This document shows positions 45,804 to 50,946 of a stretch of DNA of 64,000 bases, piece by piece. Source of the stretch: Methylotenera versatilis 79 (GTDB taxonomy: Bacteria > Pseudomonadota > Gammaproteobacteria > Burkholderiales > Methylophilaceae); assembly GCF_000384375.1 (NCBI RefSeq), contig NZ_ARVX01000001.1:1364001-1428000 (forward strand), in the 5' to 3' direction. Numbering within the stretch: the first letter of the stretch is position 1; each line of letters begins with the position of its first letter. Below the pieces are notes generated by a model. That model worked only from the letters and a program-made list of their open reading frames with translations, did no database searches and was not told where the DNA came from. The translations under genes were made by a program, and so were the position numbers.

Positions 45804-46598
45804 CTAGTCCTTAGTAATTTGAGTAGCCCGCTTTTTCATCCATGCATCTCTTACCATTACATATTCGTCAATTGATTGGCTTCGTATTTCGTCAAAAGGC
45901 AAGGCACGAGTACGCGCATCCGTGAGTTGCATAATGTTTAGTCCCAACATTACACTGCCATTCTCTACATAACCAATGGCTGACAATGGTTGATCGCCCA
46001 CTATGCTAGCAGTATCGCGAACCGTGCGGGGGCCTAACAAAGGTACAACGAGATATCGAGAGTCCTGCCAGCCCCATACAGCAAGCGTCTGTCCAAAATC
46101 TTCATATCCTTTAGATATGCCAAAATAGCTAGCCGGGTCATACAATCCAGCTATACCAACAGTCGTATTGATAACAAAACGCCCAATCGTTCGCAGACTA
46201 TTGAGTGGTTCGCCTTGTAAAGTTTGGTTAACTGCGGTACCTGGCTCACGTAGGTTTCCGAAAAAACTACTAACACAATTTTGCACTGATTCAGACGTGA
46301 TTTTTTCGTAGGTCTTGGCAAGAGGACGGGCAATAGCTTTATCGAAGCCATTGTTAAAACTATATATACTCCGGTTATATTCTTCCCAAGGATCGTTTAC
46401 GATTTTTGAGTCATCGACTTAGCTACCATTTGGTGTGACAGCTTGCTCTGGTGTAGAGGAAGCCCCTGAAGTAACGAAACCATTCACTACACCATTACTT
46501 GGGATTAGTGCTTCAATTGCCATTACTTTGGAAATATTGAGTGCCATAGTGATTAATGTAACGGAGACAATTGCATTCAAGCTGGGTATTGTTTTCAT
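45804..46598 (-). pseudogene. MlaA/VacJ-family gene with an in-frame stop
   Basis: Two open stretches in one frame: signal peptide plus N-terminus (46598-46422) and the MlaA domain (46418-45804), joined by a TAA at 46419-46421. After the stop the frame continues as VNDPWEEYNRSIYSFN, the MlaA start motif, then NTTVGIAGLYDPASYFGI and RDTASIVGDQPL. MlaA removes outer-membrane-leaflet phospholipids. The N-terminus lacks a lipobox cysteine and looks like signal peptidase I type (KVMA-IEA). ATG 46598 has an AAAGGAA site. Truncation, read-through or a sequence error all remain possible. Confidence 0.75.
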
Positions 46599-46665
46599 AT
46601 CAAGATTCCTTTTTTTCATTGAAAAGAGTATTAATAGGTTTAAAAATAAGGTTCTGAAAATTTAA

Positions 46666-47827: not shown

Positions 47828-48592
47828 TTATTGTGGAATATTTATATCAAGCGTGTTTTGGCTGAGTGTGATTGCTTGTTGCTTGCATAAGTCATGTAGA
47901 ATCTCTGCACCAAATCGCATAAATAGATCTAAATCTGGATGTTGTAATTCATTAGCAAGAGTTGTTAATGCAAGCCTGCCGGTTAATGGTTGTGACTGGG
48001 TAAGCGATAACAGATTAAAAGTAACAGGATTAAGCACAATAAACTTCACTTCGAAACTTGTATTCCTAAATACTAGTAAATAAGTTTTTTCAATAGCTGC
48101 GGGTTTAAAGCGCTTTGATATTTTGTGTACAGGGTAATCGTAAGCCAGTAATGCGCTGGCGGGTGCGAGTGTAATCACATCATCCATACAATTTAACTGT
48201 GTATTCAATGTTTGCTGTGTTGATAACGGACGTGTTTGTTGGCTACTAATCGCCAGCTCTATCCATTCGTAATGCGCAAGCGGTTTTAAATAAGATGGTA
48301 AATCCGTAATGTTTTCTAAAAATGCTAAAAATTGCTGTGGAATTTCTCTAAAAAATGGGCTAATAGCAGAATAATTGGCGACAAAATTGCGTATTAAATG
48401 ACGCCATTTACGCTTACCCAACACGTTTTGACACACAGGAAAGCAAACAGAAACGGACTCAAAGATATTGTTAAATACCGATTCGCGATAAACTGACATG
48501 CGTTTTTCAACCACATTGGCAGGTTTTGCGTGCAGTTTGGGGTTGCGAATATGCGCAGTAAATGCCAGTTGATAACGTTGAAAATCTAGCAT
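47828..48592 (-). CDS. HvfC/BufC-like DUF2063 protein
   Basis: 254 residues with the DUF2063 N-terminal domain (YQLAFTAHIRNPKL, RMSVYRESVFNNIFES, FPVCQNVLGKRKWRHLIRNFV) and a longer C-terminal part. In HvfABC/bufferin systems this partner presents the precursor peptide to the MNIO enzyme. It overlaps the end of the MNIO gene by 7 bases, so it is coupled to it. Named by gene context and family pattern, not by experiment. Confidence 0.85.
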   Translation of the reverse strand: MLDFQRYQLAFTAHIRNPKLHAKPANVVEKRMSVYRESVFNNIFESVSVCFPVCQNVLGKRKWRHLIRNFVANYSAISPFFREIPQQFLAFLENITDLPSYLKPLAHYEWIELAISSQQTRPLSTQQTLNTQLNCMDDVITLAPASALLAYDYPVHKISKRFKPAAIEKTYLLVFRNTSFEVKFIVLNPVTFNLLSLTQSQPLTGRLALTTLANELQHPDLDLFMRFGAEILHDLCKQQAITLSQNTLDINIPQ

Positions 48593-49530
48593 GTGGCGAG
48601 TGTTGAGTCTTGCGGCGCTGCAAGATTGTTTTGGTAATGTGCTTGGTACGCCGCTATTTTGTTCACCTCACGCATCAGTGCTGGCAAAGGCGGAATATTA
48701 TTATCACGTTCCAACAAGGTTGGAAAAGTGCCGAAAAGTTGATACGCGGTATCCAATAAATCCCAAACAGGGTCAATCACATCTTTGCCATGCGTGTCGA
48801 TTAATAGCGTGGGCGATTGCTGATAATGTCCAGCAATGTGGCTGTAGATAATGCGTTCAGCAGGAATTTTTCGTAAAAAATCCTGCGCTAGTTTGATGGG
48901 GTCTTGCTTGTGGGCAAAATTCACGCTGTTGACGTAAATATTATTAATGTCTAAATGCAGCCAGCAATCGGCCTCTTGCAAAACTGCCTTTAAAAAAGTG
49001 ATTTCATCCATAGTCGAAATGGGCGCGGCAGCATAAAAAGAGGCATTTTCTACCGCAATGTGCTGACCTAGAATATCTTGTGTCTGACGAATGCGTTGCG
49101 CCACATATTTAACCGCTTCTTCTGTAAATGGAATCGGCAATAAATCATACAAATAGCCAGTTTTACCTTGATAATTATCAGTGCAATAGCTTAAATGTTC
49201 GGTATAAAGTGGTATTTTATTCACAGATAAAAACTGCTTAACTTGCTTTAAAAAGTGCTTGTTCAGCGGATCTGGGCCACCTAAAGATAAGCATAAGCCG
49301 TGACAAACGATTGGATATCGTTCTACAAACCAAGCTAAATCGGCTTCTGCTTTGCCGCCTGCATTAATCCAGTTTTCTGGTGCGATTTCGACAAAATTAA
49401 TATTGGCAATGAGTGAATCGTGAATAGATAAATCTTGCTGAGATGCTTCTATATAAAGGTTTTGGATTTGAGGAATCAGCTCACGCTTTAACCCCAAACC
49501 CACGCCTTTAATATCCGCTAAAGATGCCAC
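48586..49530 (-). CDS. MNIO (DUF692) enzyme, HvfB/BufB type
   Basis: 314 residues. DUF692 TIM-barrel pattern with metal-ligand type residues: FVEIAPENW, CHGLCLSLGG, YTEHLSYC, AVENASFY, HLDINNIYVN, YSHIAGH and IDTHGKDV. These multinuclear non-heme iron enzymes oxidise cysteine residues of a precursor peptide to oxazolone/thioamide or thiooxazole products. The precursor gene lies 56 bases upstream and the partner overlaps its end. Confidence 0.9.
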   Translation of the reverse strand: MASLADIKGVGLGLKRELIPQIQNLYIEASQQDLSIHDSLIANINFVEIAPENWINAGGKAEADLAWFVERYPIVCHGLCLSLGGPDPLNKHFLKQVKQFLSVNKIPLYTEHLSYCTDNYQGKTGYLYDLLPIPFTEEAVKYVAQRIRQTQDILGQHIAVENASFYAAAPISTMDEITFLKAVLQEADCWLHLDINNIYVNSVNFAHKQDPIKLAQDFLRKIPAERIIYSHIAGHYQQSPTLLIDTHGKDVIDPVWDLLDTAYQLFGTFPTLLERDNNIPPLPALMREVNKIAAYQAHYQNNLAAPQDSTLATC

Positions 49531-49586
49531 AATGATTACGTATAGCTAATAATTATGTGTAACTTTAGTGATTAAATAACGATTAA

Positions 49587-49898
49587 TTATTTAGCTTTTT
49601 CTGCGCCGCTGCCTTCTTTAGCCTTTGCTTCAGCAGCAGCTTTTTTCTCAGCGCTGCATTTGCCTTCGCCACATTTGCCATCTTTGGCTTTAGCGTGATC
49701 TTTTTTCATTTCTGTACTACATTTACCTTCTGCACAGCTACCTTCTTTTGCTTTTGAATCAGCATCTGCCACTTGGTAGCCGCTAGATAATGCTTTAATC
49801 GCAAATGGATTTTCTGCTGCGTTAACAGTTGTCGCACCGACAGATAAAGCGAATGCGCCTGATAATGCTAAAGCGATTGTTTTGTTAGAAGTTTTCAT
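49587..49898 (-). CDS. Secreted Cys-rich precursor of HvfA/bufferin type
   Basis: 103 residues: signal peptide (KTIALALSGAFALSV, cleavage near VNA-AEN at residues 27-28), a short spacer, then Lys/Ala/Glu-rich sequence with four cysteines in EGxC-type motifs: EGSC (52-55), EGKC (57-60), DGKC (73-76) and EGKC (78-81). A fifth copy reads EGSG (95-98) without Cys. This matches the EGKC motif family modified by MNIO enzymes to bind copper or other metals. Start and RBS (AGAAGGAAA) are clear. Alternative: an unrelated Lys-rich periplasmic protein; context makes this unlikely. Confidence 0.85.
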   Translation of the reverse strand: MKTSNKTIALALSGAFALSVGATTVNAAENPFAIKALSSGYQVADADSKAKEGSCAEGKCSTEMKKDHAKAKDGKCGEGKCSAEKKAAAEAKAKEGSGAEKAK

Positions 49899-50028
49899 GA
49901 TTTATTTCCTTCTTGTTAAGTGAATAAGTTTTGATTAAAAAAGTTGTGACAAAAATTAGGTTAAGTAAGCGATTAAGTAAATATTTTATAGAGCCAAACT
50001 CATTTTATATACAATTTATATACGCAAT

Positions 50029-50280
50029 TCAATCAACCACAGATTCAATTGAGTGAGCGATACGGGTTTTAGTTTCCACTGGCAACTGAATGCTATCATC
50101 ATCTTCAATCGATTTAGTCATACGATTCAACGCATTACGCATCACCACCAATTGCTGGCTAAAGCGCTTGCAGTATTTGCATATGCATAAATGTAGACGT
50201 ACCGCAAAACGTTCCCGCCAAGATAACTGGCGATCTAACGATTTTGAAATAAGTTGAGTTGTTTCTCTACAAGTCAACAT
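50029..50280 (-). CDS. Zinc-finger anti-sigma factor (zf-HC2/ZAS type)
   Basis: 83 residues: Cys4 in MLTCRETTQL, then HLCICKYC giving the HxxxCxxC signature (His31, Cys35, Cys38, approximate). This is the zinc-binding anti-sigma domain that sequesters the adjacent ECF sigma factor. No membrane segment follows, so the signal is sensed in the cytoplasm or by the zinc-thiol centre itself. It starts 24 bases after the sigma gene stop. Confidence 0.85.
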   Translation of the reverse strand: MLTCRETTQLISKSLDRQLSWRERFAVRLHLCICKYCKRFSQQLVVMRNALNRMTKSIEDDDSIQLPVETKTRIAHSIESVVD

Positions 50281-50304
50281 GTTAAAGATTTAAGCTCCCC
50301 AAAA

Positions 50305-50865
50305 TTAAACACCAAGCCAATTGATTTCCAGACATTTTCGAATACCCATGCGGGCTCTATACAACATCACCCAAGCATTGGTCGCGGTGATATTCAGTTC
50401 CTTACAAATTTCATCATTATCTGTTTCTTGCACATCTCGTAACATGAAAAGCGCAGCTAATTTGGCGGGTAATTTGTCCATGCAGTTTTGCAATATACGC
50501 AAAAACTGTTTTTGTTCTAACGCATCTTCAGGCATATCCCAAGCCTGCGGTCCTTCAATCCAATGACCAGTATCATCAAAGAATTCATCCATACTGGCAT
50601 CAGCATCGGACATTAAATCGCTGGCTACGATTTCGCGCACATTCTTGCGCATCACATCAATAATTTTATGCTTCAAAATACCGGTTAACCAAGTGCGTGG
50701 GGATGAGTCACCAGCAAATGATGGGCTTTTAATCGCCGCTAAAAAGGTTTCTTGCACCACGTCTTCTGCCAAGTGCGGGTCACGCAAACGTGCTAACGCG
50801 AATCGATATAAAAAATCTCCATGTTGATTCAGCCAGTCATGCACATTGCTTGTTGTCATGGTCAA
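50305..50865 (-). CDS. ECF RNA polymerase sigma factor
   Basis: 186 residues with sigma region 2 (LYRFALARLRDPHLAEDVVQETFLAAIKS) and region 4 (LPAKLAALFMLRDVQETDNDEICKELNITATNAWVMLYRARMGIRKCLE, in pieces). Between them an acidic linker. No long C-terminal extension. It directs RNA polymerase to a small regulon, probably including the downstream anti-sigma and RiPP genes. This organisation resembles the gig locus of Cupriavidus (sigma RpoQ), from memory. Confidence 0.9.
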   Translation of the reverse strand: MTMTTSNVHDWLNQHGDFLYRFALARLRDPHLAEDVVQETFLAAIKSPSFAGDSSPRTWLTGILKHKIIDVMRKNVREIVASDLMSDADASMDEFFDDTGHWIEGPQAWDMPEDALEQKQFLRILQNCMDKLPAKLAALFMLRDVQETDNDEICKELNITATNAWVMLYRARMGIRKCLEINWLGV

Positions 50866-50946
50866 TATTCAATCATGTAAGGAAAAATTAAGCAAATTGA
50901 AGGGTTAAGTCGCGTCAAAACGCTGCTTGAAGCTGCGGCTTGAAAG

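Follow-up and report, generated by a model that had tools for sequence, protein, structure and literature searches.

Gene clusters of the HvfABC or oxazolin type, which encode a ribosomally synthesised and post-translationally modified peptide (RiPP) and its modifying proteins, are controlled by extracytoplasmic function (ECF) sigma factors in Haemophilus and Neisseria. In Haemophilus influenzae, RpoE2 and its anti-sigma factor HrsE control msrAB and doxX-hvfABC under hypochlorous acid (HOCl), and RpoE2 activates its own upstream promoter weakly (PMC7907618). The sigma-E/MseR operon of Neisseria (NMB2140-2145) comprises DoxX, hypothetical proteins that correspond to the precursor, the multinuclear non-heme iron-dependent oxidative enzyme (MNIO) and the DUF2063 partner, the sigma factor and a cytoplasmic anti-sigma factor; the sigma-E consensus is GTMAGBWTT-N12/13-CGTCTAAH (PMC2893595). 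Formation of 5-thiooxazole from Cys and copper binding were demonstrated for the hvf, ngo and fon products (PMC13097082, PMC13419390), and gonophorin, the counterpart of N. gonorrhoeae, carries 5-thiooxazole (PMC13097082). Bufferin and gig operons were linked to copper or gold (PMC10304878, PMC12452194). Neither the cluster type itself nor a cytoplasmic anti-sigma factor over an hvf operon (MseR, PMC2893595; HrsE, PMC7907618) is new. Here we describe a locus of this type in a 64,000-nt stretch of the genome of Methylotenera versatilis 79 (contig NZ_ARVX01000001.1, 1,364,001 to 1,428,000; called the window, to which positions refer unless marked C1), taking motif and gene order of the Neisseria and Haemophilus systems as published. 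The observations are best explained jointly by an HvfABC-type RiPP operon that is, with good probability, wired into a circuit of an ECF sigma factor and a zinc-binding anti-sigma factor (ZAS), with a promoter inside the sigma gene and a regulon of four sites. What appears to be new is this internal promoter, the four-site regulon in which msrPQ and hvfX would stand beside two metallophore pathways, and the location of hvfX away from the operon; a search of the open-access literature, with subscription journals lying mostly outside it, found no published precedent for an anti-sigma gene driven by an ECF promoter within a coding sequence.

All five genes of the locus were confirmed on the minus strand of the window in the transcription order ECF sigma factor, anti-sigma factor, precursor, hvfB and hvfC, using Pfam and NCBIfam profiles with their cut-offs and, for the MNIO and DUF2063 proteins, PDB matches; this is the order that the original prediction, made from the sequence alone, had given. 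The sigma factor has 186 amino acids (50305..50865; Pfam Sigma70_r2/r4_2, TIGR02943 above cut-off). The following gene (50029..50280) encodes a zf-HC2 protein of 83 amino acids (PF13490; NF052368 with 75.1 bits versus a cut-off of 50) with a zinc site C4-X25-H30-X3-C34-X2-C37, as read from the sequence, which matches the ZAS definition C/H-X23-26-H-X3-C-X2-C used for HrsE and MseR (PMC7907618). By inspection all 83 residues are hydrophilic and no membrane segment is present in this soluble protein, as had been proposed. Its family and the gene pairing suggest that it binds and inhibits the neighbouring sigma factor and works as a zinc and redox switch. The five genes were found in identical order in 79 of 87 HvfB-type loci fetched from Methylophilaceae, which argues against a chance arrangement; the usual upstream neighbours are nth, a FIST gene and DUF1841. 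Of the remaining eight loci, two are truncated at the end of a contig and six have no sigma pair. Across a sample of the whole class, 65 genomes had HvfC above cut-off, and in 3 of these, own genome included, hvfC was within ~3 kb of such an anti-sigma gene, so that the linkage is fixed in the family and rare elsewhere.

Inside the sigma gene, 126 nt before the ATG of the anti-sigma gene, lies a predicted sigma-dependent promoter (50378..50406, minus strand) that consists of a -35 element TGTAAGG (50406-50400), a 15-nt spacer and a -10 element CGACCAA (50384-50378). It is the only perfect match to TGTAAGG-N15-CGACYAA in the window, where two matches with up to two mismatches were found versus 0.48 expected. 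The same motif, minor variants included, precedes msrP in 14 of 14 Methylophilaceae loci examined. A weight matrix built from these msrP sites and run on the sigma loci placed its best match within the sigma gene at almost all sigma-bearing Methylophilaceae loci and gave no match upstream of sigma in the window. The motif agrees with the Neisseria sigma-E consensus in sequence and spacing, the -10 element being one base off (CGAC versus CGTC). In the 2.60-Mb genome, a single contig, it occurs four times in perfect form, compared with ~0.04 copies expected (an estimate from base composition) and none for the reversed control, and all four sites are on the coding strand, 69-134 nt before the start of a gene. 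Besides the internal site, they are located 111 nt before msrP, 69 nt before hvfX and, at 134 nt from the ATG, upstream of a BufA2 precursor gene at the head of a second MNIO operon, bufA2-MNIO-DUF2063. This second operon is of the bufferin type (BufA2 100.3 bits versus a cut-off of 60; BufB 390.1 versus 310), and BufA2, BufB, MsrP, MsrQ and HvfX all exceed their NCBIfam cut-offs. Sigma control of the locus, which had previously been deduced from gene order, is now backed by a promoter motif. Matches with two mismatches were rejected as sites because they are at chance level in this genome (31 matches altogether versus 37 for the control), and a one-mismatch site at C1:511207 was not counted since no convincing gene follows. 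Another one-mismatch site (C1:731129, TGTAAGC...CGACTAA), 249 nt before a DsbD-like gene, was not counted either; it is a possible fifth member of the regulon.

The motif was also frequent in relatives, 61 of which had 88 perfect matches versus 3 for the reversed control pattern. Genes found repeatedly behind these sites were bufA2-MNIO-DUF2063 operons, msrPQ, hvfX, MsrA/MsrB and the anti-sigma gene, as well as a secreted DUF1223 protein, a periplasmic thioredoxin with a DsbD-type membrane protein, and cytochrome b561 with an MsrP-like protein; MsrA, DUF1223 and the thioredoxin/DsbD pair were checked with Pfam at three loci, the others were assigned from similarity or visually. Of 42 genomes with the sigma factor, 32 had sites outside the sigma gene, and of 19 genomes without it, 2 had sites (Fisher 2e-6, uncorrected for kinship).

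The internal site is read as TGT AAG GAA CTG AAT ATC ACC GCG ACC AAT, the codons of a C-K-E-L-N-I-T-A-T-N stretch in region 4 of the sigma factor, and the question arose whether the bases TGT AAG ... CG ACC are kept merely by protein and codon constraint on the region 4 helix, with no promoter being present. The conserved residues C-K and T-N do force part of the motif, and from the codon usage of the locus a perfect site in the window alone has a chance of 1.3%. The third bases, however, speak for constraint at the DNA level. When 156 columns of 75 Methylophilaceae sigma genes were compared by likelihood ratio with the codon usage of each locus, the third bases of codons 154, 155 and 161 took ranks 1-3. 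Codons 154 and 155 were TGT and AAG in 75/75 genes, although AAG makes up a median of only 29% of the Lys codons in these loci, and codon 161 ended in G in 75/75, remaining NCG while the residue changed between A, T, P and S (once it was AAG, K). In contrast, the spacer codons 157-160 were near background and varied freely. A third base that is at least 90% identical was seen in only 6 of 156 columns, five of which fall in the stretch of the internal site. Of the 75 genes, 65 carried the perfect motif and every one fitted [N]GAC[CTG]AA, whereas resampling of synonymous codons gave a mean of 1.4 and a maximum of 5 perfect sites per 75 genes. The 75 genes are related and the counts not independent, so kinship inflates them; despite this kinship, the relatives have diverged enough for neighbouring codons to vary freely. 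Since these 14 bases also stand, identically spaced, in non-coding DNA before msrP, hvfX and bufA2, protein constraint alone is a highly improbable explanation.

Perfect internal sites were also found in six sigma genes from other families of the class that are only 45-52% identical. Further sigma genes, including L090 and L390, have CGTCYAA forms of the -10 element, and a Neisseria-type -10 element at the same sigma codons is hinting at an internal promoter older than the Methylophilaceae. In L090, L101, L107, L110, L144 and L390 a TGTAA- or TGCAA-type element is followed by CGTCYAA at these codons, with S-N in place of T-N. It appears likely that a clade of ECF sigma factors spread over several proteobacterial families carries its own promoter inside the codons of the domain that recognises the -35 element, and that the active sigma factor would raise its anti-sigma factor and not itself. 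If true, the motif and the protein domain reading its -35 half share the same bases and must co-evolve.

In the proposed circuit, the ECF sigma factor recognises TGTAAGG-N15-CGACYAA and, once active, would transcribe the anti-sigma gene, the precursor gene, hvfB and hvfC from inside the 3' part of its own gene. Because the predicted promoter sits in this 3' part, the sigma gene would not be included in the transcript, and output and negative feedback would rise together without amplification of the sigma factor itself. The same sigma factor is predicted to switch on msrPQ for periplasmic methionine-sulfoxide repair, hvfX, and bufA2-MNIO-DUF2063 elsewhere in the genome. Release from the anti-sigma factor probably follows oxidation of its Cys/His site or loss of zinc, caused by an HOCl-type oxidant or by copper or another metal that reacts with thiols, and it is conceivable that periplasmic copper held by the peptide during oxidative stress lessens copper-driven oxidation. 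An exact, searchable promoter sequence would join HvfX and two RiPP pathways for copper binding, HvfABC and BufA2, to one oxidative-damage regulon, and whether the peptides serve to deal with copper as such or with copper during oxidative stress could be examined directly in a harmless methylotroph. With the motif, regulons of related bacteria would become predictable; across the own genome it points to a small group of genes whose expected role is survival when oxidants or metals damage the cell envelope.

Several observations weigh against this circuit. Seven sigma-bearing genomes have no perfect site, and a sister clade of five loci has no internal site. Sites without a detected sigma factor occur in two draft genomes that are less than 90% complete, G014 and G001, the latter with its locus contig truncated. 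At six loci the sigma and anti-sigma genes are gone while precursor-hvfB-hvfC is retained at the same chromosomal place, and hvfABC can therefore operate without the pair. In addition, a conserved motif AATTGCGTATA / (T)AATTGCGTATAWA is present right after the stop of the anti-sigma gene and before the precursor gene (50010-50032, minus strand) in the window and at five other loci; it is kept within the genus, in loci with a long gap between the two genes, and may act as an additional promoter from which the precursor gene is read. As a regulon motif AATTGCGTATA was rejected, since its counts in the own genome were no higher than those of the control (5 versus 8). An arrangement in which the internal promoter serves only feedback on the anti-sigma factor, with hvfABC expressed mainly from a promoter in this gap or by readthrough from upstream, would fit the conserved gap motif as well as three loci (L316, L318 and L319) in which the internal site precedes an anti-sigma gene with no hvf genes behind it. 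In many Methylophilaceae, however, the gap is shorter than 40 nt and leaves little room for a separate promoter, and we regard this arrangement as doubtful, though worth keeping in view. That the motif is read by another ECF sigma factor of the genome would account for the two draft genomes, and the specificity of the present sigma factor is deduced; but the sites co-occur with this sigma factor, the Neisseria sigma factor with the same type of anti-sigma factor has nearly the same published motif, and one such sigma factor and one such anti-sigma factor were found in the genome, which makes a different reader very unlikely. As a separate observation, the six sigma-less Methylophilaceae loci are cases in which the peptide has become uncoupled from its regulator in nature.

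The original prediction had described the locus as a bufferin/HvfABC locus without DoxX that responds, probably, to a thiol-reactive metal sensed in the cytoplasm; spelled out as a rival reading, it would have a single transcription unit with the promoter ahead of the sigma gene. The soluble ZAS anti-sigma factor is real, copper binding is known for EGKCG and bufferin peptides (PMC13097082, PMC12452194) and gig is induced by copper and gold (PMC10304878). On the other hand, the predicted promoter is inside the sigma gene and not upstream of it, the co-regulated set serves mainly envelope oxidation repair, HvfX is present in the genome with its own site, and the Haemophilus ZAS counterpart responds to HOCl; taken as a whole, the metal-induced unit is therefore unlikely. 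With regard to the signal, an oxidant or thiol stress is more likely than metal alone, because the co-regulated set repairs methionine and disulfide oxidation in the envelope and Haemophilus RpoE2/HrsE, the closest system that has been studied, acts under HOCl. From the earlier proposal copper is retained as a plausible second input.

The absence of DoxX was upheld for the window, in which no HvfX/DoxX gene follows hvfC, a gene that is frequent but not universal in such operons; it does not hold for the genome. An HvfX-family DoxX (NF050144 with 132 bits versus a cut-off of 80) is encoded at C1:2139788, 0.73 Mb from the locus and directly behind msrP and msrQ, and is preceded by a perfect motif of its own. 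A DoxX-like gene of 169-177 amino acids directly follows hvfC in five deep-branching relatives, and with the counterpart behind msrPQ this indicates that DoxX was displaced and not lost. One relative (L252, 4603-5926) has a second, diverged sigma/anti-sigma pair followed directly by an HvfX-like gene, with a near-motif upstream of the sigma gene.

Like Haemophilus RpoE2-HrsE, the Methylotenera system combines an ECF sigma factor and a cytoplasmic ZAS anti-sigma factor with HvfA, HvfB and HvfC, DoxX and periplasmic methionine-sulfoxide repair. In Haemophilus, however, sigma and hvf genes are separate loci, DoxX is part of the hvf operon and repair is by MsrAB, whereas in Methylotenera both form one locus, the predicted promoter lies within the sigma gene, msrPQ is followed by HvfX, and the set includes a bufferin operon as a second one. 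With Neisseria sigma-E it shares the linkage of sigma and cytoplasmic anti-sigma genes to a precursor, MNIO and DUF2063 set, and a promoter of the same shape with Msr genes and the hvf set behind it, but in Neisseria the promoter precedes DoxX and the sigma gene lies within the sigma-dependent transcript and is amplified, while in Methylotenera the sigma gene comes first and would lie outside the transcript from its promoter. As in bufferin and gig operons (Caulobacter SigF-NrsF; Cupriavidus gigPABT with RpoQ-RsqA), an ECF sigma gene is found near a precursor, MNIO and DUF2063 set; these systems differ in their membrane anti-sigma factors (NrsF, RsqA) and DUF2282/Buf precursors, where Methylotenera has a soluble ZAS and EGKCG-type repeats. 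The HOCl systems of the ECF16 SigF type (Brucella BcrS-AbcS, Azospira SigF; PMC8315932) likewise place msrPQ-type genes under an ECF sigma factor in response to HOCl, a response that is only predicted here, but they use a membrane DUF1109 (NrsF-type) anti-sigma factor and a Met-rich scavenger peptide instead of an EGKC peptide.

The remaining three genes show that the locus is an HvfABC/oxazolin-type (EGKCG) MNIO RiPP cluster, as predicted, with precursor, HvfB-type MNIO and HvfC-type partner. The precursor (49587..49898, minus strand) has 103 amino acids and scored 28 bits with NF050137 versus a cut-off of 19.5; with the full-length HvfA equivalog NF050188 it remained below cut-off (38 versus 95 bits). 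It starts with MKTSNKTIALALSGAFALSVGATTVNA-AENPF..., in which a Sec signal was assigned by inspection. Its Cys motifs EGSC, EGKC, DGKC and EGKC form two paired repeats with 4 Cys, exactly the previously counted two EGKC, one EGSC and one DGKC, and a third repeat pair is degenerate, the fifth motif being EGSG with the Cys lost. By analogy to the known products, conversion of the Cys residues to 5-thiooxazole and binding of Cu are expected for the Methylotenera peptide. The HvfB-family MNIO (DUF692) enzyme (48586..49530, minus strand) was identified with PF05114, NF003818 (369.8 bits versus a cut-off of 360) and PDB 3BWW (E 3.5e-66), and the HvfC-family DUF2063 partner (47828..48592, minus strand), whose start overlaps the hvfB stop, with PF09836, PF22106, NF050145 (238.9 bits versus a cut-off of 142) and PDB 3DEE (E 9e-10). 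Bufferin proper is not the best label for this locus: the MNIO reached 243.4 bits with the BufB profile NF050167, under the cut-off of 310, and the precursor is not of the Buf1/Buf2 type. In an alignment of the precursors of all relatives, a segment AxNPFxxKxLxxGYxVA (core NPFxxKxLxxGYxVA) between signal peptide and Cys repeats was better kept than the repeats; it is possibly a docking site for HvfC or HvfB.

A further conserved element, RTGRTTGAATA, is kept immediately before the sigma start (about 50866-50880, minus strand) in the window and at eight other loci, across several genera. It was rejected as a promoter, as its 11 occurrences in the own genome versus 2 for the reversed control are a modest excess and its position at -11 is unfit for a sigma-70 -10 element; possible explanations are a binding site or a short reading frame upstream of sigma (MIEY*, MIE* or MVE*). 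Elsewhere in the window, the gene for an MlaA lipoprotein (45804-46665, minus strand) looks frameshifted: the readable frame 45804-46286 covers only profile positions 40-194, and a signal-like N-terminus is found in another frame at 46419-46619.

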